Positions 14,673 through 60,591 of a DNA stretch of 64,000 nucleotides are shown in pieces. Each line of letters opens with the position of its first letter. Position 1 is the stretch's first letter. The notes beneath the pieces are model-generated. The model was not told the DNA's origin. It worked only from the letters and a program-made list of their open reading frames with translations, and did no database searches. The stretch covers positions 11,098-75,097 of the forward strand of contig CAKUGT010000005.1 in NCBI GenBank assembly GCA_934654795.1, written 5' to 3'. The stretch is from an uncultured Collinsella sp. (GTDB lineage Bacteria > Actinomycetota > Coriobacteriia > Coriobacteriales > Coriobacteriaceae). A program made the translations under genes and the position numbers.

Positions 14673-17315
14673 ATGTTAGACCGTTTTACCGATCGCGCGC
14701 GCAAGGTCATGTCCATGGCCAAGCAAGAAGCGCTCGATCTTCACTCAAATAAGGTGGGTACCGAGCACCTGCTGCTCGCACTCGCCAAGGAGGACGAGGG
14801 CATTGCCGCCGAGGCGCTGCGTTCGCTCGACATCTCCTACGATGACATCATGGATACTCTTAAAGAGGTCCAGACCACGGTTCCCGAGCCCAGTGAGGAG
14901 ACCGAGGCGGCCAAGCTCGCCTTTACGCCGCTCGTCATTAGCGTGATGGAGCGTTCATTCCGCGTGGCGCGTGAGAACAACCAGACCTACGTGTCGACCG
15001 AGCACTTGCTGATCGGCATCGTCGAAGAGGGCAACGGCATGGCCATGGACATCCTCATGCGCTTGGGTGTGTCGTCCGCCTCCATCAAAAAGGCTATCGA
15101 GAAACTCACCGCCAAGGACCAGGATAAGAAGCGTCCGCTCGCTGGCGCCGGTGCTGGTCGTCCCGGTACGGGCCTGCCGTTCTTTAGCGGCTCGGATGCC
15201 TCCCAGCAAAAGGGGGGCGGTACCGATACACTTAAGCAGTTCGCGACCAACCTTACGCAGAAGGCGCGCGACGGCGAACTCGATCCGGTGATCGGCCGCG
15301 AAAAGGAAGTCCAGCGTATGATGGAAATTCTTTCGCGTCGCACCAAGAACAACCCGCTCATCCTGGGCGACCCTGGCGTGGGTAAGACGGCCATTGTCGA
15401 GGGTCTGGCCCAGCAGATCGCTGCCGGCAACGTGCCCGAGAACCTCATGAACCAGAATATCTGGACGCTCGACCTGCCGGGTCTCGTTGCGGGCGCCAAG
15501 TATCGCGGTGAGTTCGAGGAGCGCCTCAAGAACGTGATCCAGGAGGCAACCGAGGCCGACGACGTCATCCTGTTTATCGATGAGATGCACACCATCATCG
15601 GTGCCGGTTCCGCCGAGGGCTCCATCGACGCGAGCTCCATGCTCAAGCCGGTGCTCGCGCGCGGCGCCTTCCAGATTATCGGTGCTACCACGGCCGAGGA
15701 GTTCCGCAAGTACCTCACCAAGGACCCGGCCTTCGAGCGTCGCTTCCAGACCATCGATGTCGAGGAGCCGAGTGTCGAGGACACCGTCAAGATCCTGACC
15801 GCGCTCAAGCCGCGTTACGAGGAGCATCACCATGTGCGTTACACACAGGGTGCCATCGAGGCCGCCGCGAACCTCTCCAACCGCTACATCCAGGATCGCT
15901 TCCTGCCCGATAAGGCAATCGACCTCATCGACGAGGCCGGTGCCCGCGCTCGCATCGCCGCGAATCGCGCGCCCGAGCCGGTGCGTGAGGCCGAGCATCG
16001 CATCGAGGAACTCAAGGCCGCCGCGCAGGAGGCCACCGAGAGCGACGACATGAACAAGGCCGCCGAGATCACCGAGCAGCAGAAGGCCGCCGAGATTGAG
16101 CTCGCCGAGGCCAAGGCCGCCTGGACCGCCGAGCTCGACGCCAGCCCGCTCACCATCGATGTGAGTCAGATCGCCGACATCGTGTCCGTGACTTCGGGCG
16201 TGCCGGTGTCCTCGCTTACCGAGAGCGAGAGCCGTCGCCTGCTGCAGGCCGAAAGCGTGCTCAAGACGCGCATCATCGGTCAGGATGAGGCTGTCGAGGC
16301 CGTTGCCAAGGCCGTGCGCCGCAGCCGCTCGCCGCTCAAGGATCCGCGTCGCCCCGGCGGCAGCTTTATCTTCCTGGGTCCCACCGGCACGGGCAAGACC
16401 GAGCTCGCCAAGACGCTCGCCGAGTACCTCTTTGGCAGCAAGGACGCACTCATCAGCTTCGACATGTCCGAGTTCGGTAGCGAGTTCGAGGTCTCCAAGC
16501 TCATCGGCAGCCCTCCGGGTTACGTCGGTCACGATGAGGGCGGCCAGCTCACCAAGGCCGTTCGTCGCCACCCGTACTCGGTCGTGCTGTTCGACGAGAT
16601 CGAGAAGGCGCACCCCGACATCTTCAACATCTTGCTGCAGGTGCTGGAGGAGGGCCGCCTGACCGATAGCCAGGGCAAGACGGTCGACTTCCGCAACACC
16701 GTGATTATCATGACATCCAACGTGGGCGCCCGCGAGATCGCGCAGGATGCGAGCGTGGGCTTTGGCACCACCGGCGAGCAGGGCCTCACGTCGAGTGAGA
16801 TTAAGGGCCGTGCGATGGGCGAGCTCAAGCGCCTGTTCCGCCCCGAGCTGCTCAACCGTATCGACGACATCGTGGTGTTCCAGAAGCTTTCGGGCGAAAA
16901 CTTGACCAAGATCGCGCACCTGCTGGTGGACGACCTGCGTCAGCGCCTGATCGCCAACGGCATGAACATTAAGCTCACCGATGCGGCCTATGACAAGATC
17001 GTGGCCGAGGGTACCGACCTCACCAACGGCGCACGCCCGCTGCGCCGCGCCATCCAAAAGCTCATTGAGGATCCGCTGTCCGAGGAGCTTCTGGCCGGCG
17101 AGTGGGGCGAGGGCGACACCGTCCTGTGCGACGTGGCCGACGGCAAGTTTGTCTTTAGCCACGGCACGGGCGAGATTCCGGCACCGCGTCCGGCGGGTGC
17201 GCTCGGCGGCGATACCGCTCCGGCGGCACCGCACACCGGCAGCGCCGCGCCCGTGAGCGGCGGCGTTACCTCGGGCCCCGGTGGCATGATGCAAGCCGGT
17301 TCCGGCGCGCTGTAG
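14673..17315 (+). CDS. clpC: ClpC-type AAA+ ATPase, Clp protease regulatory subunit
   Basis: Hexameric unfoldase that feeds substrates to ClpP. 880 residues: two N-terminal Clp repeats ([18 protein letters not shown]...), first AAA domain with [18 protein letters not shown] and [13 protein letters not shown], a short middle coil (about residues 430-480, much shorter than in ClpB), second AAA domain with [20 protein letters not shown] and [16 protein letters not shown], and a Gly/Pro/Ala-rich disordered tail of about 50 residues. The short middle domain marks it as ClpC rather than ClpB. No ctsR or mcsAB is adjacent and no obvious heat-shock operator is seen upstream. Confidence 0.92.
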
Positions 17316-17340
17316 GGATTGAGCATAACCTTGCAAGATG

Positions 17341-17376
17341 GGGGCGTTTCCGATGAGGAAGCGCCCCTTTTCTTGT
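17341..17376 (+). terminator. Terminator of clpC
   Basis: GGGGCGTTTCC-GATGA-GGAAGCGCCCC hairpin followed by TTTTCTT. It marks the right border of the high-GC block. Confidence 0.9.
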
Positions 17377-17442
17377 AGAGAAGAGTTTCCGGTAACGATA
17401 AAATAATTGAAAAAGTTCTGCTGGATGGCAAAAGGAGTTACT

Positions 17443-18012
17443 ATGGCGAATAGCGCTCAAAGAATTGAGATGTCGTTCGATAACATGAGAAAAATCGGAA
17501 TGGTTCTTTGTGCCGTGCTGGTACTTATAGCCATCGCTACCATCGCCGTCTTTGGTTCGGCATTTGTTGTTGCATACCAAAGTATTTTGAACGGCGCAGT
17601 GGTAATCGAGGGGGTCGTTGAGCTTGGTAAGGGCGGCAGCATCGCGCTCCCAAACTTGGCGCTATGGGCGGTTTTGCTCCTTGCAGGGGAGTTCACATTG
17701 TTAAGCATCAGCTTCGATGTCGCCCGTCGTCAATCGCCTTTTACTATTCGACATGCACGGATGATCACCGTCATTGCTTGCCTATTTGCAATCAATGCCG
17801 TGATGGGCTCTCTACAGATTGGTAGCGATTTAAAAATAATGATGGGCAATTGTATGTTGAGCTGTCGTATGAATTCCGCTCTCCTTCAGATTGGTGACTC
17901 AGGCATCACTTTGGATGTGGGATCCATCATTGCAATGATGGTCGCTTTCGCTTTGTCAATCTTCTGGCGCTATGGGGCGCTTTTGCAGTCCCAGTCTGAT
18001 GATTTGGTCTAG
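17443..18012 (+). CDS. DUF2975-type membrane protein
   Basis: 189-residue protein with four clear membrane helices (starting about residues 13, 66, 107 and 154). The pairing with a small XRE regulator immediately downstream is typical of DUF2975 proteins, whose function is not established; membrane-linked control of the regulator is possible but unproven. AAAAGGAG lies before the ATG. Base composition drops clearly below that of clpC, and codons such as AAA, ATT and TTT become common, suggesting that a transferred segment starts here. Confidence 0.72.
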   Translation: MANSAQRIEMSFDNMRKIGMVLCAVLVLIAIATIAVFGSAFVVAYQSILNGAVVIEGVVELGKGGSIALPNLALWAVLLLAGEFTLLSISFDVARRQSPFTIRHARMITVIACLFAINAVMGSLQIGSDLKIMMGNCMLSCRMNSALLQIGDSGITLDVGSIIAMMVAFALSIFWRYGALLQSQSDDLV

Positions 18013-18022
18013 GTGATTGACC

Positions 18023-18349
18023 ATGGATTATCTCATTATTGAGGTTGAGACGCTTTTGCTTAAGACTGGGAAAACAAATGCCGATCTAATTAGGGCGACT
18101 GGGCATACGCCAGCTAACATTTCTAAAATCCGAAATGCAAAAATCAAGGCCATACGTTTGAAGACATTGCTCGATATCTGTGTTGAGTTGGATTGTCAGC
18201 CGGGAGATTTGATCCGTCGCGTGAGTGAAAAAGAACTTGAGGAACTTACCATCGCGCGCGCGCGGAACAAGATTTTGCAAAGACACAATCCCGACCCCTC
18301 CGAGACATTGCCCACAGAGGTTTACGTAGTAGATCTTTCTAAGGAATAG
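18023..18349 (+). CDS. XRE-family helix-turn-helix regulator (YozG-like)
   Basis: 108-residue DNA-binding protein. The HTH spans about residues 14-60 (NADLIRATGHTPANISKIRN, then LLDICVELDCQPGDLI, a typical Cro/CI small-regulator ending), with a short charged tail. Start at 18023 chosen because AGGTGA lies six bases upstream, overlapping the stop of the membrane protein gene; the two are translationally linked. It is the only regulator close to the RiPP operon, so it is a candidate, though unproven, for binding the dyad at 18460-18478. Confidence 0.8.
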   Translation: MDYLIIEVETLLLKTGKTNADLIRATGHTPANISKIRNAKIKAIRLKTLLDICVELDCQPGDLIRRVSEKELEELTIARARNKILQRHNPDPSETLPTEVYVVDLSKE

Positions 18350-18390
18350 GAATAACAAAACAGAATAAGAAGACAAACACGTATATATGC

Positions 18391-18424
18391 AAGGCTCCTA
18401 CCGCAAGCGATCGGTAGGAGCCTT
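18391..18424 (+). terminator. Terminator after the XRE regulator
   Basis: AAGGCTCCTACCG and CGGTAGGAGCCTT form a 13-bp stem; followed by AAATTATTT. It separates the regulator pair from the RiPP operon. Confidence 0.85.
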
Positions 18425-18446
18425 AAATTATTTGGAAAAAAAGTTC

Positions 18447-18478
18447 TTGAAATCATAAGGTTATCGATATACGATAAC
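18447..18478 (+). promoter_or_regulatory. Promoter and overlapping dyad operator of the RiPP operon
   Basis: TTGAAA (18447-18452), a 17-base spacer and TACGAT (18470-18475) form a sigma-70-like promoter. A perfect inverted repeat GTTATCG-ATATA-CGATAAC (18460-18478) covers the spacer end and the -10 box, as expected for a repressor site. The precursor start codon is 40 bases downstream. Confidence 0.6.
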
Positions 18479-18517
18479 GGAGTATTAAAACAGACGATAA
18501 ATCGAAAGGGGGTAATT

Positions 18518-18628
18518 ATGAACTGGGTAATCGATCCGTGTAGCAACGTGCAGGGTGGCGGTAGTGGCTGCCGCAATTACCATCCATGTTCGCGCTGTAG
18601 CTGTTTTGGCGTATATGTCCATTTCTAG
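18518..18628 (+). CDS. Cysteine-rich RiPP precursor peptide (36 residues)
   Basis: Probable substrate of the radical SAM maturase encoded 2.4 kb downstream. The frame is 36 codons from ATG 18518 to TAG 18626-18628, with AAAGGGGG six bases before the start and no alternative start upstream in frame. It begins MNWVIDP; cysteines are at 8, 18, 24, 27 and 29, with a Gly-rich GGGSG (13-17) before the second and an aromatic tail ending YVHF. The close C-x2-C-x-C spacing near the C-terminus and small size fit sactipeptide/ranthipeptide precursors; the start resembles, from memory, the MKYIVKP start of Clo7bot-type Cys-rich peptides. Followed by an attenuator and transporter genes. The assignment rests on context, length and composition; no homology search was possible. 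Confidence 0.75.
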   Translation: MNWVIDPCSNVQGGGSGCRNYHPCSRCSCFGVYVHF

Positions 18629-18668
18629 CAAGACGAACGTTAATGCTGGCTAAGACAGCAGAGGGCAA

Positions 18669-18712
18669 GCAGCGTGGTCGATAACTGCCATCCATCGGCC
18701 GCGCTGCCTTTT
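18669..18712 (+). terminator. Attenuator between precursor and transporter genes
   Basis: GCAGCGTGGTCG (18669-18680) pairs along 12 positions with CGGCCGCGCTGC (18696-18707), two being G-U pairs, with a 15-base loop and then CTTTT. It ends 17 bases before the ATPase start, so it probably lowers expression of the downstream genes relative to the peptide. Confidence 0.65.
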
Positions 18713-18729
18713 AATGAGGTTCATGAAAC

Positions 18730-19458
18730 ATGGGTAATGTGATTTCAGTCAAGGATCTATCAAAACGCTACGGCAAAAGTTGGGCGTTGTCTGATGTTTC
18801 ATTTGATATAGATGAGGGCGAAGTTTGCGCTCTCGTTGGGGAGAACGGCGCGGGGAAGAGTACGTTGATTGATATTCTCCTCGGTTTGCTTAAGGCAACG
18901 AAAGGCTCAATCAGTATTTTCGGTGAGTCTGGGGGAACAAGTCTGACAAGAGCACGCAGAAATATCGGATTCGTCCCCGACGGCTGTGGGGCATTCTTGA
19001 ACTTAACCGGTCGAGAAAACTTGATCTCACGCTGTATCGAGTGGGGGCTGCCGAAAAGTGAAGTTAATCGAGTGCTCGCTGCTGTTGGCCTAGAAAATGC
19101 GGCGGATGCATCGGTAAAACAATACTCGCTCGGCATGAAGCGTCGTCTGGATATCGGAACGGCGCTTCTGGGCAACCCGCAACTACTCATCATGGATGAA
19201 CCCATAAACGGGCTCGATCCAGTGGGTGTGATTGAGGTGCGTGATCTCCTGCTGTCGTTGAAGGACAAACGGGATAAAACGGTGCTCATTTCAAGCCATA
19301 ACCTAGATGAATTGGAGAAAGTTGCGACATCTTTTGCTTTTCTCCATCAAGGCAGACTTCTCGTTAAGGAAGAAAACTCCTACAAAGACAGAAGTCTGGA
19401 AAAGCGGTTTTTGGATTTGATCGGGGAGGCAGATAATGCAACTTCTGCGACTGATTAG
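18730..19458 (+). CDS. ABC transporter ATP-binding protein (BcrA-like, RiPP operon)
   Basis: 242-residue ATPase energising the two permeases that follow. Walker A GENGAGKST, signature YSLGMKRRLDIG, Walker B LLIMDEPINGLDP and the H-loop ISSHNL are all intact. Its class (single ATPase with two ABC-2 permeases) is common for self-immunity in bacteriocin and lantibiotic operons (BcrA/LanF type), which I infer here; peptide export is the alternative. The start at 18730 follows the attenuator and has only a weak GAGG upstream. The 3' end overlaps the next gene by 23 bases. Confidence 0.85.
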   Translation: MGNVISVKDLSKRYGKSWALSDVSFDIDEGEVCALVGENGAGKSTLIDILLGLLKATKGSISIFGESGGTSLTRARRNIGFVPDGCGAFLNLTGRENLISRCIEWGLPKSEVNRVLAAVGLENAADASVKQYSLGMKRRLDIGTALLGNPQLLIMDEPINGLDPVGVIEVRDLLLSLKDKRDKTVLISSHNLDELEKVATSFAFLHQGRLLVKEENSYKDRSLEKRFLDLIGEADNATSATD

Positions 19459-20239
19459 ATGCGAAGCCCGTCGGTTGCTCAGAAATCCAGCCTTTTTCGT
19501 GTTGTTGATCTGGGGAGCTTGGATTGTTAAAGATGTCTGTAATCCAAATATGTATGGGACTTATGGAACATCTGATTTAGGGGGAGTCGGCAAACAGATT
19601 GGTTTCTTTGCAAACATCCTCGACAAGACTGACCCGGCTGGTTCGGCGGTTCGGACGGCACTATTCATGACCTACGAGTGGTTTTTCGTTCTAGTCGGAT
19701 GCGTTGTTCTTTCCTGCGCCATGGATTATCAAAGCAGGTCTTCTGAAGTGACGTATGCAAAAGGGACGGGTGTAGCAAAGGCCGTTGTCGCAAAGTGGCT
19801 TGTTCTGGCGATTGCAACTTCAACAGCGTTCAACCTGTTTTCGGGATTCGCTCTCTTCAAATCTCCGCTTGGCTGCTATGTGGATGGGCGGGTGTTTCTT
19901 GATAGATACCTACCCGTGTTGCTTTTGATTGATGCTATTTTGGCTGCATTAGTAGCTCAGTCGATGGCAGTTTTCTATTTACTTAGAAATGCACCGCTTA
20001 GCATTATGTTGGTGTTGGTCGGGACGCTGCTCGCCTCCGATGAATATACGCTGGTGGTCTTTTCCAATCACGCGTCGACGCAAATTCCCTGGTGGCTCTC
20101 AGTCGGACCATACTTACGCCATCTTGGAAATCTGTGCTTTCAAGGCCTAGCCATTAATCAGATCATTCTTTTCTCTGTTATTTGCACCGTTGTTTCGTTG
20201 CGGCTCGGGGTCATGGGAATCAAAGCGAGGAGGGGGTAG
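19436..20239 (+). CDS. ABC-2-type permease 1 (RiPP operon)
   Basis: 267-residue membrane protein with about six helices, starting inside the ATPase gene (GGGGAGG ten bases before the ATG). Between helices 1 and 2, on the predicted outer face, it carries NMYGTYGTSDLGGVGKQIGF; the second permease has a similar YGTSD-x-x-G motif in the same place, so the two are probably divergent paralogues forming a heterodimer. No close family is recognised beyond ABC-2 permeases. Role inferred as immunity or export of the RiPP product. Confidence 0.75.
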   Translation: MQLLRLIRCEARRLLRNPAFFVLLIWGAWIVKDVCNPNMYGTYGTSDLGGVGKQIGFFANILDKTDPAGSAVRTALFMTYEWFFVLVGCVVLSCAMDYQSRSSEVTYAKGTGVAKAVVAKWLVLAIATSTAFNLFSGFALFKSPLGCYVDGRVFLDRYLPVLLLIDAILAALVAQSMAVFYLLRNAPLSIMLVLVGTLLASDEYTLVVFSNHASTQIPWWLSVGPYLRHLGNLCFQGLAINQIILFSVICTVVSLRLGVMGIKARRG

Positions 20240-20241
20240 AA

Positions 20242-21051
20242 ATGCGCTACGAAGATATGATGAAGGCTGAAGCCTATCGAGTTATGAAGAGCAAAGCGCC
20301 TCTTCTGCTGATTGCGGCAGGTTTCGTGCTCGCATTGCTTTATTCTGTGTCTTATGAACCATGGAGAGCCTACGGAACGAGCGATTGGCTTGGCGACGGT
20401 GTTATGGGCTTCTTTCCAAACCCACAATATGGTTTCGGGGGAATTCCGGGAGACCTCGTTAAAGATGGAGCTCGCTACCTTTCCGCTGTGGCACCGCTTG
20501 CCCATTCTCTGTTCTTTCCTATTGTTGCTGTTCTCGTCATCGGCTATGCGTTTCGAGCTCCGATAACGGGATCTCAATGGCTTGTTTCCTATGCAAGGGG
20601 AATGAAAACAGTACAGTTGTTGGTTGCAAGGACTCTTGTCTCGATTGTCACGCTTGTCGGTGGTTTTGTTCTCTTTTCGATACTCGTTGGTGCGGTCCAA
20701 AGCGCGAGTGGCACAGGAATGACGATGGATATGATCGGAGAGTTTCTTCATCGGCTGTTTCTTGCTGCCTTGATTTGCGCAACGTTATGCCTGCTGCTCG
20801 TCCTGGCCATCTCGCTCTTTGGAAATGGCGCGTTTGTTCTATCGTTCATCATCCTGCTGCTTTATTTGGGGTACGGGAATGCAAATATGCCACTGCACTT
20901 GACATGGCTGGCGACCATTGCGTCCCCGCGGCCAATTCAATTCATCGTGCCGGGGACGTTGCTATTTGTAGCGCTGGCAACAGTCGTTCCCATTGTCATC
21001 CTCGGGCTTTGTTGGGCTATCAAGGGTGCTATCAGAAAACGGAGCATATAA
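20242..21051 (+). CDS. ABC-2-type permease 2 (RiPP operon)
   Basis: 269-residue membrane protein, about six helices, starting two bases after permease 1 with GAGGAGGGGG upstream; a longer in-frame start at 20182 overlaps permease 1 and lacks a site. It contains AYGTSDWLGDGVMGFF after the first helix, parallel to permease 1. The stop overlaps the ATG of the maturase gene (taaatg), so the operon is tightly coupled. Substrate unknown; see the ATPase entry for the two possible roles. Confidence 0.75.
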   Translation: MRYEDMMKAEAYRVMKSKAPLLLIAAGFVLALLYSVSYEPWRAYGTSDWLGDGVMGFFPNPQYGFGGIPGDLVKDGARYLSAVAPLAHSLFFPIVAVLVIGYAFRAPITGSQWLVSYARGMKTVQLLVARTLVSIVTLVGGFVLFSILVGAVQSASGTGMTMDMIGEFLHRLFLAALICATLCLLLVLAISLFGNGAFVLSFIILLLYLGYGNANMPLHLTWLATIASPRPIQFIVPGTLLFVALATVVPIVILGLCWAIKGAIRKRSI

Positions 21052-22338
21052 ATGAAAGAGTCTGAATTTAACGTTATTGAAGAGAATGATGTGAACGGTA
21101 TCACTATCTACAATACCCAGTCTGGTGGCGTTCTCGACCTTGACGCTGCGCACACGAATGAGCTGAATTTATATCGCAAGGGTGCCGCCGCCTTGGATGG
21201 TGATTTCGAAGAGGCCCTTAAGATAGGCGGCATGTTGGTAGATGACGATGTTGACGAGCGGCGACTGTTGATGCTCGAGAGCCTGTCAGCAAGGTTTGCA
21301 AATGACTATTTAGGACTGACGATTGCTCCAACGCTGGCGTGCAACTTTAGGTGCCCCTACTGCTATGAAAAGGGCTGCTCGCACCCCACTATGTCAGAGG
21401 AAACAATGACGGATGTCGCAACGTTTGTGCGTTCCGGCTATTCCGGGATCAACGATCTTCACGTTGACTGGTATGGAGGCGAGCCCTTACTTTGCGTGGA
21501 TATGATTGAGCGGCTGACAAAAGAACTGAGAGGAGCGATTAGGCCAGGCGCCACTTATTCTGCCGGAATGGTAACGAACGGATATCTCTTGACGCGAGAA
21601 ATTGCTCAAAAGCTTGCTGATTGTCAGGTCGGTTCGGTTCAAATCACTATCGATGGCTCAAAGAGGGATCATGATTCGCGGAGGGTCCCAGCTGACGGTC
21701 GCCCGACATATGACGCCATTATCGACAATATCATCTCATGTGCCGACGTTCTTCAGATTACCATTCGCGTGAATGTTGATGAATCCAATAGCAAAGAGGT
21801 TGATGCGTTGATCGATGAGCTTGAAGCTAGGGGGCTTCGCGGTAAAGTCGCGATTTATCTTGCGGCGGTCGACAATGTTAACGATACCTGCTCAAATGAC
21901 ATTCATTGTTTCTCGCAGCGTGGGTTCTCTCAAGTTGAAACATTCTTTATGGATAAAGCTAGCGAGCGCGGATTCAACGTTATTCCGTTTACGCCGTATG
22001 AACCAGGTGTCTGCTGTGCGGTTTCCCTTAATTCGTTTGTCATCGATCCGCTTGGTAGACTTTTTAAATGTTGGGATGAGGTTGGCAAGGGCGAGTGCGC
22101 CGTTGGAAATGTTCGAGAAGGTGTGAAAGCTAATTCGAACTATTTGAAATGGATGGAGTATTTACCAAACGACCCAGTATGTGGCGAGTGTGTAATGTTT
22201 CCGGCTTGTATGGGCGGATGTCCCCACGCCGCGATGGAGGGTCAGAGAAAATGCGCGAGCGTTAAATTCAATGCCAGGCAGAGAATGCGATTGGCTTGTA
22301 ATTATCAGTATTCGCATGAGGCAAATCACGATGTTTAG
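21052..22338 (+). CDS. Radical SAM/SPASM peptide maturase
   Basis: 428-residue radical SAM enzyme predicted to modify the Cys-rich precursor, for example by thioether formation. The radical SAM cluster is CNFRCPYC (C97, C101, C104), followed by the SAM-binding YGGEPLL motif. The C-terminal SPASM region shows C-x2-C-x5-C-x3-C (CGECVMFPACMGGC) plus flanking cysteines for auxiliary Fe-S clusters. The N-terminal ~85 residues (ITIYNTQSGGVLDLD...) could be the peptide-recognition part; no canonical RRE is evident by eye. Starts right at the stop of permease 2 and overlaps the exporter gene by eight bases. Clo7bot/CcpM-type maturases are the likely relatives. Confidence 0.88.
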   Translation: MKESEFNVIEENDVNGITIYNTQSGGVLDLDAAHTNELNLYRKGAAALDGDFEEALKIGGMLVDDDVDERRLLMLESLSARFANDYLGLTIAPTLACNFRCPYCYEKGCSHPTMSEETMTDVATFVRSGYSGINDLHVDWYGGEPLLCVDMIERLTKELRGAIRPGATYSAGMVTNGYLLTREIAQKLADCQVGSVQITIDGSKRDHDSRRVPADGRPTYDAIIDNIISCADVLQITIRVNVDESNSKEVDALIDELEARGLRGKVAIYLAAVDNVNDTCSNDIHCFSQRGFSQVETFFMDKASERGFNVIPFTPYEPGVCCAVSLNSFVIDPLGRLFKCWDEVGKGECAVGNVREGVKANSNYLKWMEYLPNDPVCGECVMFPACMGGCPHAAMEGQRKCASVKFNARQRMRLACNYQYSHEANHDV

Positions 22339-23962
22339 ATTTTGGAAGATATATCTCCTCCATAAGCCAAGGCTTTATGTCTATCTGCTTCTCGATGTTT
22401 TGTCTCAGCTGTGCAGCCTTGCTGAACCATATCTGTTGGGACTGACTGTAAATATGCTGGCGGCAAAAAATGTCCTCGGTATTAGTTCGCGGACACTAGT
22501 CTTATGTATTATGGCGATTGGCGTGGTCGCCATTGTGAGGTCGGTGTTGACCTATTGGACTTCCCTAATCTATGTCGACCTTCAAGCGCATGCAGGATAT
22601 CAACTTAACGCTGACACACTTGAACATGTCAAGCGCTTGCCCCGGAAGTTTTTCATCGGATTTGATGCTGGCTATTATAATCAACAAATCAATCACGATT
22701 CAAACGATCTCATAGTATTCGGAATAACATCGGCGTCAAATATTATTGGCGGTGTTGCAACGATAATATGTTCCTTGATTATGTTGATGAATATAAACAC
22801 TGCGATGGCGATTGCCTGTTTAGCCTGCATCGTTGCGGGGGCAGTAGTTTATCGATTGTTTAGCGGGCTGCTGTTCAATCGAGGCTTTGAGTTTCAAGAA
22901 AAGACCGCTACTTTCTTTGGGACTCTTCAGAGTCAACTGGAGAGCGTCTCCTTTCTACGTCGCCATTCGTTATTTGATTTCTATTCTTTGAGGCTGCAGA
23001 AGGCTTTCGATGGTCTTTATCCAGCTATATTGGCTAACCAAAAAGCCGGATCAAGGTTCGAACTTGCGAATCAGTTGATTTTTTCCTTTGCGCAGTTCTG
23101 TTTGCTCGCGATTGGAGGCTGTGAGATTGTCGCAGGCAAAATGCCGGTTGGTTTTCTGCTGACGGCATTGAGCTATTATTCGAGCGCCAATTCTGCTCTG
23201 GTGAACTTGCTTTCTTGGGGCAAAAGCTACCAGGCGAGCAAGGTGAGCGCCCAACGCCTTAAGCGCCTTTGGGCAATGGATGAAGAGGCGAACGGCTCTG
23301 TCCGCATTGGTTCTCCTGTTTCACTTGTGTGCAAGGGCCTGTCGATTTGTCGTCCTGATACCGATCGAATCATAGATTATCCAGAGCTCATCTCGCTTAA
23401 TCGAGGAGTCTTATACGGCGTGTCGGGCGCAAACGGAAGCGGGAAAAGCACGCTTCTCGATGGCATAGCTGGTCTATATCCCGATGATTGCGTTGGGACT
23501 ATTGCTTATGACGAGGTTGATTTGAGCCAGATTGATTCTATAAATCTACGCTCGCATGTCGTTGGTATTGCCGAGCAAGAACCCGATGTCGTTAACGGAA
23601 CACTCAGAGAGAATCTGACGCTACTCGCGGGCGATAATTGTCCAATTCTTGAAGTCGGGCGACTTGTAGACCAGTTTGGTCTGACCAAACTGGTCTCAAC
23701 ACTTCCCAATGGTCTTGATGGGGTGCTGGACGAGCAAAACCATAATATATCGGGTGGTGAGAAGCAGAAGATTGCGATTATTCGTGTATTGCTCAAGGAC
23801 TCGCCCGTCATGTTATTCGATGAACCGACGTCGGCTCTTGACGGAGCGAGTAGGTCAGCGTTCATTGATATTCTGCAACAGAAGAAAGAAGATCATATAG
23901 TGGTTGTTGTCTCGCATGATCCCGAGTTGCTTGAGGCTTGCGACGAAGTGATTGAACTGTAA
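22331..23962 (+). CDS. Type-1 ABC exporter, fused membrane and ATPase domains (RiPP operon)
   Basis: 543-residue half-transporter predicted to export the modified peptide as a dimer. An N-terminal six-helix domain (about residues 15-310) is followed by an ATPase with GVSGANGSGKST, signature ISGGEKQKI and Walker B VMLFDEPTSALDG. No N-terminal C39 peptidase is present, so it cannot cleave a leader itself. Start at 22331 chosen from GAGG about ten bases upstream; it overlaps the maturase gene by eight bases. Last gene of the operon; an unremarkable 215-base spacer follows. Confidence 0.85.
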   Translation: MFRFWKIYLLHKPRLYVYLLLDVLSQLCSLAEPYLLGLTVNMLAAKNVLGISSRTLVLCIMAIGVVAIVRSVLTYWTSLIYVDLQAHAGYQLNADTLEHVKRLPRKFFIGFDAGYYNQQINHDSNDLIVFGITSASNIIGGVATIICSLIMLMNINTAMAIACLACIVAGAVVYRLFSGLLFNRGFEFQEKTATFFGTLQSQLESVSFLRRHSLFDFYSLRLQKAFDGLYPAILANQKAGSRFELANQLIFSFAQFCLLAIGGCEIVAGKMPVGFLLTALSYYSSANSALVNLLSWGKSYQASKVSAQRLKRLWAMDEEANGSVRIGSPVSLVCKGLSICRPDTDRIIDYPELISLNRGVLYGVSGANGSGKSTLLDGIAGLYPDDCVGTIAYDEVDLSQIDSINLRSHVVGIAEQEPDVVNGTLRENLTLLAGDNCPILEVGRLVDQFGLTKLVSTLPNGLDGVLDEQNHNISGGEKQKIAIIRVLLKDSPVMLFDEPTSALDGASRSAFIDILQQKKEDHIVVVVSHDPELLEACDEVIEL

Positions 23963-24177
23963 AAGCTTGTGCATGGCGCTTCGTTGCGGGACTCATTGCC
24001 TGTGGATAGCGAATTGCAGCTGATGTGGGCATTTATCTCAAACATGTATCAGCTTCTTTTATTGACTAATCCCACAACGGCAAACCCGGTCAAACGAACG
24101 CTTCAGTACTGAGGCGTCTGTCTGTCTGACAAATTGCTATACTTAATAAAGGAAAGCGTGTAGCAAAAGGAGCCAAC

Positions 24178-24537
24178 ATGTCTATGTCGATACTAGACTC
24201 ACGGCCGGTTCAGATGAACGTGCGTATAGATCGTCAGCTCAAAGAGGCGGGAGACGCCGTCCTGACTCATATTGGCATGACGCCGTCGCAAGCCGTTCGG
24301 GCGCTTTGGGAGTATCTGGTCGTTAACGGACGAATGCCCTCGAAGGGGGACACAGCGGCTCCGGTTTCTGACGGAGTGGAGCCCCGGCGCATGGAGTCAA
24401 GGGCCGCGCAAGGCAGTCATATCGTTCGCGATTCGTGCCTCAAATACGGCATCCCCATCCCTGACTTCTCGGGAGACTATGACGACCTCTATGCGGAGGC
24501 CATGGCGGAGCGCTATCCCGAGTGGGTGGAACTATGA
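24178..24537 (+). CDS. RelB/DinJ-family antitoxin
   Basis: 119-residue protein whose N-terminus, MNVRIDRQLKEAGDAVLTHIGMTPSQAVRALWEYLV, is a ribbon-helix-helix domain of RelB/DinJ type, with a longer, probably disordered, toxin-binding tail. AAGGAG lies six bases before the ATG. Its stop overlaps the toxin start (ATGA). It probably neutralises the PIN protein and represses its own promoter; a TATACT -10 (24140-24145) and a palindrome (ACGCTTCAGT/ACTGAGGCGT, about 24100-24119) lie upstream. The usual partner of this family is RelE/YafQ, not PIN. Confidence 0.8.
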   Translation: MSMSILDSRPVQMNVRIDRQLKEAGDAVLTHIGMTPSQAVRALWEYLVVNGRMPSKGDTAAPVSDGVEPRRMESRAAQGSHIVRDSCLKYGIPIPDFSGDYDDLYAEAMAERYPEWVEL

Positions 24538-25055
24538 GTGCGGGCGGAATCCTCAAGTTGCTCATCGATACCAATGTATGGATGGATTATTTTTCTGGCA
24601 GGTCTGACCGTACGGCAAACGTCGTCCATCTGATCGAGATTGCCGACGCCTCGGAGCGGATTGCCCTGTTTGCCTCGTCGCTTTCGGTCAAAGACGTTTC
24701 ATATCTTGTCTCGGCGGCAATCAAGCAGGAGTGTCGAAGAAAGACTGGCTCACTGAGCGATAACGCCATTGCGGCGGCAGACGAAACGGCCTGGGCATGC
24801 GTTCGACAGATGCGCGAGCTGGCCCTCATTGCCCCGGTCGGTGCAGACGAGGTCTTCGACTCCTTTGTGTTCAAGTATCATCACAACGACTTTGAGGACG
24901 ACCTGATGCTGGGCGTCGCCAATCGCATTGATGCCGATTACGTCGTGACGGAGGACAAGAACCTCATTAAACATACCAATGGCGTATGCATAGACGTTGA
25001 TCAAGCGTTGAGGTTGGTTGGAGAGGTCAACAGCTCATCCGCCCTGCCCATCTAG
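24534..25055 (+). CDS. PIN-domain toxin (VapC-like ribonuclease)
   Basis: 173-residue PIN protein: acidic catalytic residues in LLIDTNVWMDYFSG at the start and DDLMLGVANRIDADYVVTEDKNL near the C-terminus, the usual PIN metal site. Predicted Mg-dependent RNase acting as the toxin of this pair. The ATG at 24534 gives the four-base ATGA overlap with the antitoxin; a GTG twelve bases upstream is possible. The target RNA cannot be read from sequence. Confidence 0.8.
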   Translation: MSAGGILKLLIDTNVWMDYFSGRSDRTANVVHLIEIADASERIALFASSLSVKDVSYLVSAAIKQECRRKTGSLSDNAIAAADETAWACVRQMRELALIAPVGADEVFDSFVFKYHHNDFEDDLMLGVANRIDADYVVTEDKNLIKHTNGVCIDVDQALRLVGEVNSSSALPI

Positions 25056-26787: not shown

Positions 26788-28092
26788 CTAGTCCATATCT
26801 GCCCTGATGAGGTCGAGGGTGCGCTGGCAGTTTTCGCGGACGGGGCCGAGCATATGCTCGCGCAGGTCCGCCATGCCGGGCAGGTCGGCGTATTCGTCCA
26901 TGACCTCTTCCATGCAAATGGGTACCTCGTAGGCGAGGTCCATCATGGTCGCAAAGCAAAACTTCTCGGTCAGCCCGGCATCGGTGAGCGCCGCCTCTAG
27001 GGCGGGGTCGCCCATACCGTGGTATCGGCGGATAGCACCTGGACCGATGCGCCCAACGCGGTTCTCGCCGCCAACGCTCATGGCAAGGCGCGCTTTTCGC
27101 CGCATGCGTTCGTATGCCAAACCCGACGCGACATCGTACATTCGAGCCATCATGGCTGCGCCGTCGTTTCCAAGGAGCAGGGAATAGTTTTTCGCATGCG
27201 CATCTGGTGCGCCGATAATGGCGTTGAAGAACAGTATCTGCGTAAACAGATACAGGTTAAGTTGATGGTGACTCGTGTTTACGAGGAGCTCTTGAATGTC
27301 GCGTGTGGTCGGGCCGCCGTCTGCCGTGTACTTTTGGGCGGGCATCACCCCAAGTGCCTGACAGAGGTCTTCTTGATGTAGGCGCCTGATCGTTCCGTCT
27401 TCGACTTTCACGCGGTCATAGCGCTCAACAATGAGGGCAGGTTCGTCCTCAAACATACGATATTCGACGTTTGCCGTTGCGATACCGGCGCGCTGGGCGC
27501 TTTTCATGCAGACAAACTCATTGAGAGCCTCAAGTTTAAATCCGATAACGCCATTTTTGAAAATGTGCGTCGTGGGCGAGGAGCCCATGCATTCGCACCA
27601 GCGGCCGTTTATGAACGCGAGCGCGAACTTGCCCTGGTTGCCTCCAAGTGACCAACTTTCATCTAGACCCATCCATGATGCATCGCGGTCATCTCTGATC
27701 GACTTGAGGCGTAGGGCAATCTCGTGGTCGTCTATAGGACGGTATTCGCCGGTGCGATGCAGGACGGAAGCGATATCTTCTTCGGCGCAAAATTGCACTC
27801 CGCCCGGACAGTCGAGTCCAATATGGCTGAGCAGCGCAACAGGATTGTTGGGTCTAACGTCGAATTCGGCGGCAATCGCTTTTCGTTGGTCCTCGCTGTC
27901 GGGTAGAAGGCCAAACAGGTACGGATTCATGACCTGTTGTCCGTATGTACGATTCGATACGGGTATGTTGGTCGATAGGGCTGGCCCGTCATAGTCATGA
28001 TCGTAGGTAAAGCTGATAAGACCGTTCTCATCTTGCATGAGCGTTCCCGCAGGTACGTCGCAAATAATGGTCCGAAGTGATGTTCTGGCCAT
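26788..28092 (-). CDS. hipA: HipA-type serine/threonine kinase toxin
   Basis: 434 residues. HipA kinases phosphorylate glutamyl-tRNA synthetase or other targets and cause growth arrest. The N-terminal subdomain (LISFTYDHDYDGPALSTNIPVS), the catalytic DAHAKNYSLLL around residue 296 and the metal-binding MYDVASG are all present, so the kinase looks active. It starts three bases after hipB ends, so the two are co-transcribed. Length and order match E. coli-type hipBA. Confidence 0.88.
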   Translation of the reverse strand: MARTSLRTIICDVPAGTLMQDENGLISFTYDHDYDGPALSTNIPVSNRTYGQQVMNPYLFGLLPDSEDQRKAIAAEFDVRPNNPVALLSHIGLDCPGGVQFCAEEDIASVLHRTGEYRPIDDHEIALRLKSIRDDRDASWMGLDESWSLGGNQGKFALAFINGRWCECMGSSPTTHIFKNGVIGFKLEALNEFVCMKSAQRAGIATANVEYRMFEDEPALIVERYDRVKVEDGTIRRLHQEDLCQALGVMPAQKYTADGGPTTRDIQELLVNTSHHQLNLYLFTQILFFNAIIGAPDAHAKNYSLLLGNDGAAMMARMYDVASGLAYERMRRKARLAMSVGGENRVGRIGPGAIRRYHGMGDPALEAALTDAGLTEKFCFATMMDLAYEVPICMEEVMDEYADLPGMADLREHMLGPVRENCQRTLDLIRADMD

Positions 28093-34445: not shown

Positions 34446-35123
34446 ATGTCCAAGAAGAACCGCGCCAAGTCCAAGGCCAAGCGCTTTGGCGAAGGCTCGG
34501 CCAAGCCGATTGTTTCGGCCGCGACCTACGGCGTGGGCAGCAATGCGTTTGCGCAGGCTATCGCCGATCCAGTCTCGACAGTGCATTCCAACAAACCCGA
34601 GCTGTTGGTGGTCGACGGCTACAACGTGATCCACTGCACGCCGCGCTACGAAAAGCTCGTGTACGACCATTCCGACGATCCGTATTCCAGCGACGTTCAC
34701 GATATGGCGCGCACCGCCCTCATTAACGACGTGGCGGCGTTTGCCCAGGGTCGCTACGAGGCCGTGATCGTGTTCGACGGCGCGGGCAATATCTCCAACG
34801 AGCGCCCCAACCTGCCGGCCCGCGGTGTGCGCATCGAGTTTTCGCCGACGGGCGTCTCTGCCGATACCGTGGTGCAGAAGCTCTGCATCGAGGCACGCGA
34901 GGAAGGCCGCGCGTGCTCCGTGGTATCGAGTGACGGCACGATCCAGGCCGTTGTCATGGGGAAGGGCGTTACGCGCATCTCGAGCCGTATGCTGGTGGAC
35001 GAGATCAAACAGATCGATAACGACGTTCACGAGGCCGAGGAGGCCCCGCAGATCAAGATGACCCTGGGCAGCCGCTTGAGCCCCGATGCCCTGGCCAAGC
35101 TCAAGGCCCTGCGCGGGAGGTAG
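34446..35123 (+). CDS. yacP: NYN-domain ribonuclease (YacP/Rae1-like)
   Basis: 225 residues. The PIN/NYN-type domain begins at ELLVVDGYNVIHCTPRYEKL and has the acidic VIVFDGAG and VVSSDGTIQ motifs. In Bacillus the homologue Rae1 cleaves mRNA in the ribosomal A site; that function is inferred. The first ~45 residues are basic (KKNRAKSKAKRFG), fitting RNA or ribosome binding. Position downstream of rlmB matches Bacillus. In Bacillus sigH and rpmG come next; here a palindrome- and tRNA-rich stretch intervenes and sigH is absent. Confidence 0.85.
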   Translation: MSKKNRAKSKAKRFGEGSAKPIVSAATYGVGSNAFAQAIADPVSTVHSNKPELLVVDGYNVIHCTPRYEKLVYDHSDDPYSSDVHDMARTALINDVAAFAQGRYEAVIVFDGAGNISNERPNLPARGVRIEFSPTGVSADTVVQKLCIEAREEGRACSVVSSDGTIQAVVMGKGVTRISSRMLVDEIKQIDNDVHEAEEAPQIKMTLGSRLSPDALAKLKALRGR

Positions 35124-35162
35124 GAAACCTTCTATGGGGAGCTGCTTTCTCGATTGACCAAC

Positions 35163-35195
35163 CAACTAGTTTGTAATCAATGAGTTGCGGCTTGG
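35163..35195. other. tRNA-Thr-like fragment (anticodon arm)
   Basis: 33 bases match 26 of 33 positions of the anticodon-to-T-arm part of the tRNA-Thr(TGT) gene at 35371-35403, including TTTGTAATCA. No acceptor or D arm flanks it, so it is a remnant or chance similarity, not a tRNA. Confidence 0.4.
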
Positions 35196-35198
35196 CAT

Positions 35199-35254
35199 CG
35201 TCAAAACGAATAGTTTTTGGTTTTGGCGAACGGATAAAACTATTCGTTCTGACG
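35199..35254. repeat. 19-bp-arm palindrome
   Basis: CGTCAAAACGAATAGTTTT (35199-35217) and its inverted partner (35236-35254) pair at 18 of 19 positions around an 18-base loop. Confidence 0.65.
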
Positions 35255-35347
35255 AAGGGTTTTGAGATGTGGTCGGTCAAAGGGTCTGTTGCACCCCGTC
35301 CGCAATTCCTTTATTCTTAACTGGCTTCGCGCGAAAGCGCCAAGTGT

Positions 35348-35422
35348 GCCAGTGTGGCGCAACGGTAGCGCAACTGATTTGTAATCAGTGGGTTGCAGGT
35401 TCGATTCCTGTCACTGGCTCCA
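35348..35422 (+). tRNA. tRNA-Thr (TGT anticodon)
   Basis: Acceptor GCCAGTG/CACTGGC, anticodon stem ACTGA/TCAGT with loop TTTGTAA, T arm GGTTCGATTCC, encoded CCA. Confidence 0.95.
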
Positions 35423-35433
35423 TGAGAGTTTCG

Positions 35434-35470
35434 GGTTCTGTTCCCTTGTGGGACAGGGCCCGTTTCTTTT
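35434..35470 (+). terminator. Probable terminator after tRNA-Thr (TGT)
   Basis: CTGTTCCC-TTGT-GGGACAG hairpin with flanking GGG/CCC, followed by GTTTCTTTT. Confidence 0.6.
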
Positions 35471-35515
35471 ATGTCGATAAGTCAGCGTGTTTAGCGCCAA
35501 CCAAGCTTCAGGTTT

Positions 35516-35733
35516 GTCTCGATCCGTAACACGAGTGGGCTGAAGACCCTCCTTATAGTTACAGATCGAGACATTGCCAAGGGACGGCCGATAACATCTC
35601 GATTTGTAACACGAAGAGGCTGAAAACCGTTCTAGCTGTTACGGATTGAGACGTTAAGACGGGTTGAGCGGGAAACATCTCGATCTGTAACAGATAGGGG
35701 AGGAATAACCCTCTTACTGATACAGATCGAGAC
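35516..35733. repeat. Three tandem 57-base palindromes
   Basis: Copies at 35516-35572, 35596-35652 and 35677-35733, each exactly 57 bases, start-to-start 80 and 81. All have arms of about 15 related to TCTCGATCTGTAAC and GTTACAGATCGAGA; inner sequences differ but keep a purine-rich left and a CCCT/CCGT-type right part. Confidence 0.8.
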
Positions 35734-35764
35734 GGAAGCCGGGGTGGGGCTGATCGCCCTCATC

Positions 35765-35906
35765 GGGCGTGGATTTTCGGACGTACGAGCGTGGAAAAAC
35801 TCCCGCTTAGTGAATGAGCGTGGATAATCTGCCACTTTGGATTCGATGGCACGGCAAAGTGGGAGATTATCCACGCTCGATTTCAAACGGAAGAAAATCC
35901 ACGCTC
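35765..35906. repeat. Nested palindrome array with GAGCGTGGA cores
   Basis: Inner palindrome: 24-base arms at 35816-35839 and 35855-35878, 23 of 24 paired, beginning GAGCGTGGATAATCT. Outer pair: GGGCGTGGATTTTC (35765-35778) and GAAAATCCACGCTC (35893-35906). A further direct copy, GAGCGTGGAAAAACTCCC, starts at 35788. Confidence 0.75.
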
Positions 35907-36121
35907 GAATCTGCCGCGGAAGCCCGATCTCGACCTATATATAGGTGCAAATAAGCCGTTATCGAAGTTCGATCCTGAAGGTGTACTCCACTAAACCAAA
36001 GTGTTATCTCGGGAAACGTCACCTCAGTATCCAAAGCTATCGACCTTCATATCCAAACTCAACAAAACCGCAGGTCAAAAGCATATAGATACGCCCGGAA
36101 CCGTGTATCTAGAGGTTTTCG

Positions 36122-57941: not shown

Positions 57942-59318
57942 ATGTGGGCATACGAGACGACGTTCTACCAGATCTATCCGCTGGGCTTTTGTGGAGCTCC
58001 GCGCGAAAACGCCGCACCCGTTGCCGAGGATGAGCTTGCCCAAGCTGCCGGCACCGCGCCCAACCCCGATGCGCCCATCATGAAAATCGCCCAATGGGCT
58101 GACTACCTGCAGGAACTCGGCGTTGGCGCTGTGTTGATCAACCCGCCGCTCGAGTCTGATAGCCACGGCTACGACACGCGCAGCCTGCGCCATATCGACC
58201 GTCGCTTGGGTGGGGATGCCGACTTTGCCGCCGTGTGCGAGACACTGCATGCCCACGGCATCCGCGTGGTGCTCGACGCCGTCTTCAACCACGTCGGTCG
58301 CGGCTTTTGGGCCTTCCGCGATGTGCAGGAGCGTAAGTGGGACTCGCCGTACAAGGACTGGTTCCACATTAGCTTTGACGGCGACTCCTGCTATGGCGAC
58401 GGCTTTTGGTACGAGGGCTGGGAAGGCCATTTTGAGCTCGTGAAGCTCAACCTGCAAAACCCCGCCGTGGTCGATTACCTGCTCGAGTCCGTGCGCCGTT
58501 GGGCCGACGTCTTTGGCGTCGACGGCCTGCGCCTGGACGTTGCCTATATGCTCGACCGCGACTTTATGCGCCGCCTGCACGCCTTTGCCCGTGAGCTCAA
58601 GCCCGACTTTGTGCTGATCGGCGAGACGCTCCACGGCGACTACAACCAGATCGTCAACGATGAGATGCTCGACTCCTGCACCAACTACGAGTGCTACAAG
58701 GGCCTGTATTCCAGCTTTAATTCGGTCAACATGTTCGAGATTGCCCACTCGCTGCATCGCCAGTTTGGCGGTGACCCGTGGTGCATTTATCGCGGCAAGC
58801 ATCTGCTGTCGTTTGTCGACAACCACGATGTGCCGCGCCTGGCGAGCATTCTTACCGACAAGTCCTGTCTGCGCCCCGCTTATGGCATGCTCTTTGGCAT
58901 GCCGGGCATTCCGTGCGTCTACTATGGCAGCGAGTGGGGAATCGCCGGCGAAAAGGGCGGCCCCGATGGTGACTGGGCGCTGCGGCCTGCGCTCGATGAG
59001 CCTGCGCCCAACGAGCTGACGGCCTTCATCAAGCAGCTTGCACGCCTGCGCTCGGCCGACGACGCGGCGGCCCGTGCTCTCAACTACGGCGCGTACCGTA
59101 ACGTGGTGATCCAGAACAAGCAGCTACTGTTCGAGCGCGCCTGCGACGACGCGACGGTGCTCGTGGCGGTCAATGCCGTGAACGAGCCCTATACCTTTGG
59201 AGCCGGCGAGCTCAACGGCTCCTTTGCCGACCTACTTGCCGACGGCGCGCCCACAGTCGAGCTAACGGGTGCCCTTGAGCTTGCACCCTACGAGGTGCGC
59301 TATCTGTTGAGAGCCTAG
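57942..59318 (+). CDS. GH13 alpha-amylase-family glycosidase
   Basis: 458 residues, cytoplasmic (no signal). The family's catalytic residues are present: nucleophile Asp in DGLRLDVAYML, acid/base Glu in LIGETLHG, and the third Asp in FVDNHDVPRL; also DAVFNHVGRGFW. The length fits cyclomaltodextrinase or neopullulanase-like enzymes lacking extra domains, so it may degrade imported maltodextrin. The substrate is inferred from family. GGGAGG lies before the ATG. Confidence 0.85.
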   Translation: MWAYETTFYQIYPLGFCGAPRENAAPVAEDELAQAAGTAPNPDAPIMKIAQWADYLQELGVGAVLINPPLESDSHGYDTRSLRHIDRRLGGDADFAAVCETLHAHGIRVVLDAVFNHVGRGFWAFRDVQERKWDSPYKDWFHISFDGDSCYGDGFWYEGWEGHFELVKLNLQNPAVVDYLLESVRRWADVFGVDGLRLDVAYMLDRDFMRRLHAFARELKPDFVLIGETLHGDYNQIVNDEMLDSCTNYECYKGLYSSFNSVNMFEIAHSLHRQFGGDPWCIYRGKHLLSFVDNHDVPRLASILTDKSCLRPAYGMLFGMPGIPCVYYGSEWGIAGEKGGPDGDWALRPALDEPAPNELTAFIKQLARLRSADDAAARALNYGAYRNVVIQNKQLLFERACDDATVLVAVNAVNEPYTFGAGELNGSFADLLADGAPTVELTGALELAPYEVRYLLRA

Positions 59319-59321
59319 GCC

Positions 59322-59531
59322 ATGGCTGCGTCCGACGAGAGCTATCAACATATTGAGCATGGGTTTGAGCCCGTGTTTGACGAGTGTTCGCGCGTTTTGG
59401 TGCTCGGGTCGTTTCCTTCGGTGCTTTCGCGCGCCAATGCCTTTTATTACGGTAACCCCCAGAACCGCTTTTGGCGCGTGATGGCCGCGTGCCTCGGTGC
59501 GCCCGTGCCGCCCAACGAGGGCGAACCTTAA
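59322..59531 (+). pseudogene. DNA-deoxyinosine/uracil glycosylase, 5' fragment
   Basis: 69 codons starting three bases after the GH13 gene: HIEHGFEPVFDECSRVLVLG then SFPSVLSRANAFYYGNPQNRFW, the N-terminal motifs of UDG-superfamily DNA-deoxyinosine glycosylases, then a stop at 59529-59531 exactly where the sequence turns AT-rich. Intact relatives are about 160-200 residues. The C-terminal remnant is at 60526-60591. The gene is broken by the insert between them. Confidence 0.75.
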
Positions 59532-60525
59532 AACGGAGTATTTGAGCATGAAATAGAAAGCCTGGTCAGTCCAGATAGTGAGAAGTTGAAGCTGAAGACC
59601 ATCGCAGAATTGACAAATCGAAATTTGTGGAGAGGAGAAGTATCGATGGAGTGGACAAGTGAAAAGTATAAAAACAACCTACTGGAGTATGAAAAAAAAG
59701 ATGGTATAAAAGCAATTACCGTATATTGCCTCATAATGGGCAGTGCATTTTTTCATGGCTGGCTTTATACAACAAATACAAGCGTGCTCATATTAAATCT
59801 GTCACAAGTTTGGATTCCTCTTGTCTTGATTTTACTTTTCGCATGCTTTTTCCATTACAACAAACAGAAAATAGACAGTGTTGGAATTAACACCGATAAG
59901 CTAAAAAACAGCATTATTCTAGGTGTTATTGGTGGAATTTTTCTGCTTGCTATACAAACGGTGCTGTTTAAGGCACAAGGGAAATCCATATCGTTTATGG
60001 AGCCCTTATTGATAAACTGGATCATTTTCTTCTTCGCTGCTCTCGAAGAAGAAATTATATTTAGGGGATACATTCAAACAAGATTGTCAGGATTGATAAG
60101 AAACCAGTGGATAGTTGGTATTATCAATTCGGTTCTTTTTCTTTCGATACATTACCCGGTAAGATGGGTAATTATTGGAAAGCTATATTTTGATGTGTTG
60201 CCGGTAGAGTATGTGATCTCCCTTCTGGCTTTGCACTTTTTTTGTGATGCAGTGTATAAAAGAACAAATTGTTTATGGGGCTCAGTTGTGCTCCATATTA
60301 TCTATAACGCAGTAGGGGCGATGATTGCTGTTTAATAACTTCCAGCTTGTAGCGATGACATGAACAAGTGAAGTTTAAGGAACAGAGCTTTACCCTCTTT
60401 ACCTATACAAATATATAGGGCAATTCAAGGTTTCACATGCTCGAAACCCTGGGTTTTAAGGGAAAAGGTGCGCTCCACCATTGCCTTGTACAATAGGGGT
60501 TGAGTATGTTTTTCCTTGAACAATC
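59532..60525. mobile_element. AT-rich insert carrying a CPBP-family gene
   Basis: About 1 kb of clearly lower GC placed between two parts of a high-GC glycosylase gene. It holds one intact gene (59646-60335) and, at its left end, a short in-frame stretch (HEIESLVSPDSEKLKLKTIA) that looks like the tail of another gene. No transposase and no clear terminal inverted repeats or target duplication are visible, so the mechanism is unknown; part of the host gene has been lost. Confidence 0.6.
59646..60335 (+). CDS. CPBP-family intramembrane metalloprotease
   Basis: 229 residues, about seven membrane helices, with the catalytic EEEIIFRGYIQTRL (Glu-Glu and Arg) at about residues 136-150, a HYPVRW histidine motif and a final HIIYNAVGA. 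CPBP proteases include CAAX-processing-like and bacteriocin-immunity proteins. AGGAGA lies before the ATG at 59646. AAA/ATT/TTA codons dominate, unlike the neighbours: the gene came from a low-GC donor. Confidence 0.82.
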   Translation: MEWTSEKYKNNLLEYEKKDGIKAITVYCLIMGSAFFHGWLYTTNTSVLILNLSQVWIPLVLILLFACFFHYNKQKIDSVGINTDKLKNSIILGVIGGIFLLAIQTVLFKAQGKSISFMEPLLINWIIFFFAALEEEIIFRGYIQTRLSGLIRNQWIVGIINSVLFLSIHYPVRWVIIGKLYFDVLPVEYVISLLALHFFCDAVYKRTNCLWGSVVLHIIYNAVGAMIAV

Positions 60526-60591
60526 GAGTCATGGCACCTGGAGCGCCTTATTGAGCGCTGGCGCGAAGCCGTTGACTGGACCGCTCTCTAA
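60526..60591 (+). pseudogene. DNA-deoxyinosine/uracil glycosylase, 3' fragment
   Basis: High-GC frame reading ESWHLERLIERWREAVDWT and ending AL-stop, resembling the SLERLIEAW tail of the glycosylase family whose N-terminus is at 59322-59531. No start codon; a stop lies at 60517-60519 just upstream in frame. Confidence 0.6.

Follow-up and report, generated by a model that had tools for sequence, protein, structure and literature searches.

The Clo7bot system (TIGR04333 peptides and the TIGR04334 maturase CtpM, represented in our comparison by locus L075 on a Paraclostridium plasmid) combines short Cys-rich precursors with a SPASM maturase and an ABC (ATP-binding cassette) exporter, and we found the same combination in a gene cluster, apparently for an RiPP (ribosomally synthesized and post-translationally modified peptide), within a 64,000-nt stretch of DNA from an uncultured Collinsella sp. 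(the window, whose positions are used throughout; L- and G-numbers denote compared loci and compared genomes respectively). In L075 all nine frames are led by MKFIKKP or close forms, and the leader in the window, MNWVIDP, has a similar layout with lysine replaced; the window differs from Clo7bot in its W-[IV]-x-x-P leader, its extra pair of genes for an HTH (helix-turn-helix) regulator and a membrane protein, and its LanFEG-like genes. The enzyme of the window resembles the SCIFF maturase of PDB entries 5wgg and 5why, which we take to be CteB, in its RRE (RiPP recognition element)-like N-terminus, its radical SAM (S-adenosylmethionine) and SPASM domains and its Cys-rich substrate, but the identity over the fold is only ~19%. 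TIGR04463 offers a further comparison, although its annotated example (L077) adjoins a large CefA-type precursor, unlike the window. Finally, peptide clusters with LanFEG systems also contain an ATPase and two small permeases, and TIGR03740 is the best model for the ATPase of the window, which scores below the cut-off but may still work alike.

We consider it most likely that this cassette serves to produce and export a tiny Cys-rich modified peptide and to confer protection against it. The best overall explanation, to which we give a probability of roughly 0.72, is that the block from 17374 to ~24150 constitutes an RiPP gene cluster varying between strains, with LanFEG-like self-protection and a probably bacteriocin-like product. 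It holds genes for the membrane protein, HTH regulator, precursor, ATPase and two permeases (the ABC-2 genes), maturase and exporter:

17374–24157, no strand assigned: whole cassette, missing in one piece from G001; GC content 0.477 against 0.600
17407–18012, + strand: membrane protein of 201 aa if begun at the first TTG, ~5 hydrophobic segments, without Pfam family
18026–18349, + strand: HTH regulator (PF13443, 56.9 bits, cut-off 22)
18391–18424, + strand: terminator-like hairpin after the HTH gene (−24.1 kcal/mol, z −5.25)
18447–18475, + strand: weakly indicated promoter-like TTGAAA-17-TACGAT (9/12)
18460–18478, no strand assigned: palindrome GTTATCGATATACGATAAC overlapping the −10 element, a probable operator
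18518–18628, + strand: very probable RiPP precursor of 36 aa with leader MNWVIDP and Cys at 8, 18, 24, 27 and 29
18660–18720, + strand: hairpin in the precursor–ATPase gap (−26.1 kcal/mol, z −2.87; equalled in 3 of 200 shuffles)
18730–19458, + strand: ABC ATPase, scoring highest with the lantibiotic-protection model TIGR03740 of NCBIfam (191.8 bits; cut-off 309.75)
19436–20239, + strand: permease A, ~5 hydrophobic segments, with ABC2_membrane_3 below threshold (E 0.012)
20242–21051, + strand: permease B, ~6 hydrophobic segments, without Pfam or NCBIfam family
21052–22338, + strand: radical SAM/SPASM maturase, 428 aa, with RRE-like N-terminal domain
22331–23962, + strand: ABC exporter, membrane domain and ATPase, by domain matches

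A preliminary description of this DNA had proposed an apparently complete RiPP operon whose small precursor gene calling would easily miss; this is well supported here, and its reading of the 36-codon frame with its ribosome-binding site and five cysteines, and of the transporter, the radical SAM/SPASM enzyme and the exporter downstream, agrees with ours. It had also described a single direction with tight gaps; the genes do lie on one strand, but the precursor and ATPase genes are separated by 101 nt holding the hairpin. Moreover, the unit does not start at 18447 as proposed but near 17374, thus including the membrane-protein and HTH genes (17407–18349). New to that account are this regulator pair, the two ends of the cassette, the role in immunity suggested for the ABC-2 genes, and the haplotypes described below that keep immunity genes only.

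The boundaries were established by comparison with G001, the closest compared genome, which has 44% of the window's sampled words in common. Here the sequences matching 16500–17373 and 24135/24158–26500 are separated by just ~24–47 bases, an empty site, and therefore the block from 17374 to ~24150 (~6.8 kb) is absent from G001 as a single piece, its right edge lying between ~24135 and 24158. The cassette is flanked by the clpC terminator, common to the window and G001, on one side and by a RelB/PIN gene pair, retained in G001, on the other. Its GC content is 0.477 compared with 0.600 across the remaining window, in line with the lower value noted previously. We saw no clear insertion-scar repeats at the cassette ends, the only repeat being a 10-base match of the CAAAAGGAG type corresponding to a ribosome-binding site. 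Across the cassette genes, locus L015 (from a record titled Collinsella aerofaciens) has 96–98% protein identity to the window.

The precursor frame runs from an ATG at 18518 through a stop ending at 18628, translates as MNWVIDPCSNVQGGGSGCRNYHPCSRCSCFGVYVHF and is preceded by a ribosome-binding-site-like stretch, AAAGGGGG, ending 5 nt ahead of the ATG. Between the window and L015 the frame shows four substitutions (three synonymous and one other) and no indels, compared with 12 changes in 162 columns and 14 gap columns in the upstream spacer, and seven changes in 112 columns and three gap columns in the downstream spacer; this substitution pattern is only suggestive of translation, as four changes alone are too few for a test. 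The peptide matched no NCBIfam or Pfam family, and when searched against 395 genomes it gave matches in 188 at E≤1, of which one was clear (G061, 9.4e-23) and the others were at 0.0037 or above. As this search missed the peptides of the L017–L019 type described below, the cores are not linked by plain similarity.

What recurs is the leader. Relatives of the maturase were found in eight of 43 genus genomes at 1e-60 or better and in 71 of 395 order genomes at 1e-40, and 25 relative loci were taken with wide flanks for context. In a tree of 35 rows (gaps stripped, seven distant rows left out) the window maturase falls in a separate 14-row clade, also recovered in a 42-row tree, and the annotated Clo7bot enzyme lies outside it. 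Five of the six loci of this clade with known context (the window, L048, L017, L019 and L051) have a leader-bearing Cys frame, the sixth (L050) beginning at a contig end, and the common ultra-short leader is M-x-W-[IV]-x-x-P. Conservation of a small frame beside the same maturase, whose absence would have spoken against the earlier proposal, was thus found, and we regard the 36-codon frame, on this sequence evidence, as very probably a real precursor. L017 and L018 (maturase identity 48%) carry two peptides, MDWINEPEEGVAPACGNCFFYAHGGCTKRCPNQSCTFRF and MEWITEPSAGAEPMCNNCFFYAHGSCSTKCSSQECTIRF, and L019 (45%) carries MSWIVKPSYVDPGGGCNGYCKTFCGARTCVNNCSKNFCLVNL, in each case between the HTH and ATPase genes. 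In L021 and L049 (38%) two longer peptides, one with a GTG start, precede the maturase, and L051 and L053 have the 28-aa peptide MEWIIKPVEDEDVLGRCHVMSPCKRGLD. The more distant L055, L059 and L060 have candidates of looser form; no precursor candidate was recognized in L054, L056 or L058, and for L023, L057 and L061–L065 only a pattern scan was applied (an aromatic leader residue plus three Cys), so that absence there means little.

As a control, we collected all small ATG frames of 20–60 aa with a ribosome-binding-site-like stretch from 14 records, counting nested starts. Eleven of 335 fitted M.[WYF][IV]..?P and all 11 sit upstream of the maturase within its cluster, although the pattern was devised after the peptides had been seen and L017/L018, L021/L049 and L051/L053 are near copies. 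The five records without a match were L020 and L050, both at contig ends, L022 and L052, whose 28-aa frames have the looser leaders MEIVVKA and MDVVISP, and L054. Comparison of the L019 and L172 precursors revealed no change in residues 1–21 or in any of the six Cys, with eight of ten base changes in residue-changing codons, all within the core, which indicates a diversifying core rather than constraint overall. In L173 (G002, at a contig end) a precursor, MNIYKPTYVDPGGGCNGLCSGNNCNMRYCGSYSPCFIKNSCIVRGRG, lies ahead of ATPase and permease genes. The 28-aa frames (L051:7648–7734, L053:9040–9126, L022:7436–7522 and L052:2205–2291 in the oriented loci), all beside related maturases, are among the smallest precursor candidates and have C-x3-[HS]-P-C-K-R in common, the window core being similar with C-x4-P-C-S-R. 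Those of L051 and L053 are identical though from different genera, and a search with the 28-aa peptide gave matches in 74 of 395 genomes at E≤1, with identical peptides in G117 and G181, 0.005 in G002 and at least 0.03 in the others.

The maturase contains CNFRCPYC, C321-x13-G-x4-C340, C377-x2-C-x5-C-x3-C390 and C401, and its RRE-like domain comprises three strands and three helices. The complete radical SAM and SPASM Cys set is invariant across 92 aligned sequences, and the closest solved relative by profile, and first by Foldseek, is the thioether-forming RiPP enzyme of 5wgg/5why. Thioether chemistry is plausible. The best NCBIfam model, TIGR04463, gave 281.9 bits against a cut-off of 525, and the SCIFF maturase model TIGR03974 gave 70.6 against 425. 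The families suggested in the preliminary description, Clo7bot and CcpM, were near misses, with 260.9 of 600 bits (TIGR04334) and 82.1 of 500 respectively. As these scores lie far below the cut-offs, we rejected assignment to Clo7bot or TIGR04463 despite the similar leader layout. With the Clo7bot peptide model TIGR04333 (cut-off 31), the window precursor gave no match and that of L019 reached 9.8 bits (E 0.7), compared with 36.8 for a true Clo7bot peptide of L075; across 21 relatives and 14 controls this model matched nothing in either set.

An indication of function came from a second, homologous locus. G003 has a full locus (L019) at another chromosomal site, and we compared all 11 sites at which permease B of this locus was found among 43 Collinsella genomes. 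The maturase and exporter are present in two (G003 and G010, the latter split over two contigs whose joining is inferred) and absent from nine with one identical junction. The precursor is present in three (G003, G010 and G028) and absent from seven of the ten resolved sites, G064 lying at a contig end; six of these seven have a common junction, which a deletion between a pair of AGC triplets could explain, and that of G061 differs. G028 is intermediate, retaining the precursor without maturase and exporter. The ABC-2 genes are retained in all nine genomes lacking maturase and exporter, with a short ATPase in G060 and one running off the contig in G064. Of the 35 copies of the five remaining genes in the seven genomes without precursor, maturase and exporter, 34 are full-length and open; only the ATPase of G060 is truncated, with 220 of 241 residues. 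Mean dN/dS (non-synonymous to synonymous rate ratio) across these seven was 0.04 for the HTH gene, 0.12 for the ATPase (six genomes), 0.27–0.28 for the permeases and 0.29 for the membrane protein. G061 combines a full window-type cassette with an immunity-only second locus. The simplest reading of these sequences is that precursor, maturase and exporter serve production and the ABC-2 genes protection: the absence of parts with open ABC-2 genes at low dN/dS points to a production module and a separable immunity module, and hence to a probably bacteriocin-like RiPP. Retention without biosynthetic genes, a LanFEG-like trait, was thus found at the homologous locus.

In this scheme, the HTH protein and its membrane partner would gate a promoter whose −10 element sits in the palindrome TTATCGATATACGATAA, presumably through binding of the HTH protein to it, and the precursor would perhaps be made in excess owing to the hairpin 3′ of it. 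The RRE-like domain of the maturase would grip the ~7-residue leader, and the enzyme would then cross-link the core, where some of the five Cys would most likely form thioethers, and the ABC exporter would secrete the product. No peptidase domain was matched in the exporter and none of the cassette genes encodes a peptidase; the leader may therefore be kept or trimmed by a general protease. The separate ATPase and two permeases (neither permease matching an NCBIfam model at E 1) would form the LanFEG-like self-protection module, which makes a bacteriocin-like product probable.

The two-module reading has its limits: part of the dN/dS divergence may predate the deletions, stepwise gain rather than loss could also account for the second locus, and a strict rule is at odds with L021, L049 and L051, whose maturase neighbourhood showed no ABC-2 ATPase. 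If the product were instead a signalling peptide and the ABC-2 transporter served sensing or uptake, the tie of the HTH and membrane-protein pair to the cluster in L017, L018 and L019 would be natural, and the regulator and transporter would persist without the precursor, as expected of listeners; but the best model for the ATPase is lantibiotic protection and the cores differ strongly between loci, unlike a shared signal, and we regard this alternative as rather improbable. That the 36-codon frame is untranslated and another peptide is the substrate seems very improbable indeed: the frame matches no family and has one clear match among 395 genomes, yet start, ribosome-binding site, leader, position in the cluster and absence of indels all recur.

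Within an RiPP cluster, the maturase might also perform other radical chemistry, e.g. formation of C–C bonds or a cyclopropyl group, with the Cys residues forming disulfides or binding metal. This we judge unlikely, as Cys residues are what recurs in the cores, a repeated motif of the TIG or TVG type was not seen and the closest solved enzyme comes from a thioether study. Returning to the bacteriocin-like RiPP, we propose more tentatively that these loci represent a class of Cys-rich bacteriocins with minimal leaders in coriobacteria, naturally polymorphic between producer and immune-only forms, in which Collinsella lineages might have lost maturase and exporter, and then precursor, at one chromosomal site. 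If so, the retention of immunity transporter and regulator under selection would make the peptide a real agent of gut Collinsella competition.

With regard to regulation, a start of the membrane protein near 17443 is likelier than the first TTG. Its gene precedes the HTH gene also in L017, L018 and L019, where HTH homologues of 69–76% identity hold the same position; homologues of both follow the exporter in L050 (L050:3430–4334), perhaps as the start of a second cluster. Promoter-like sites number five in the stretch against 2.2 expected from shuffles, a weak excess. The palindrome, probably an operator, is the sole match to TTATCGATATACGATAA in the window at three or fewer mismatches, at least one match occurring in 19 of 100 shuffles. 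Forms with up to two mismatches precede the precursor or ATPase gene in L048, L019, L073 and L074, and TTATCGTTTTACAATAA precedes the L173 precursor. Weaker forms, with three mismatches, precede the membrane-protein gene in L019, L073 and L074, and one occurs at an unrelated place in L019; no form of the palindrome was found in L017, L018 or L050. The hairpin at 18660–18720 is possibly an attenuator, and hairpins occur at the matching position in L015, L019 and L018.

RiPP models cover gut Actinomycetota poorly, and no precursor model matched the clusters described here, with precursors of 28–56 aa. The excerpted text of a 2026 survey of rumen isolates, in which the ranthipeptide rule is the SCIFF model TIGR03973, gives none in Actinomycetota (PMC13289728). 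In open-licence literature, excerpts on Collinsella bacteriocin clusters describe SCIFF-type clusters in pig isolates; we found there no mention of Clo7bot, TIGR04463, TIGR04334 or TIGR04333, nothing related on radical SAM enzymes and RiPPs of Collinsella, nothing on Coriobacteri radical SAM enzymes with a precursor peptide, and no instance of the core string PCKRG. That parts are naturally absent at one site provides a ready test of peptide-making versus protecting genes, and also allows one to ask whether such peptides drive gut competition. For C. aerofaciens, a comparison of 197 genomes has been published (PMC10039858).

As to a plasmid or phage origin, at least 41 plasmid records match, all at <60% identity, and at least 30 viral loci at 20–36%, with no close relative among the matches listed in either case. 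Directly after the cassette, at 24178–25055, lie the RelB-like antitoxin (PF04221) and PIN-domain (PF13470) genes, which are not part of it because G001 has the pair too, as judged by DNA match. A HipA-like gene (PF07804, PF13657) is located on the minus strand at 26788–28092, and two more stretches of low GC content (~0.51) are found in the window at 35001–36000 and 59001–61000.
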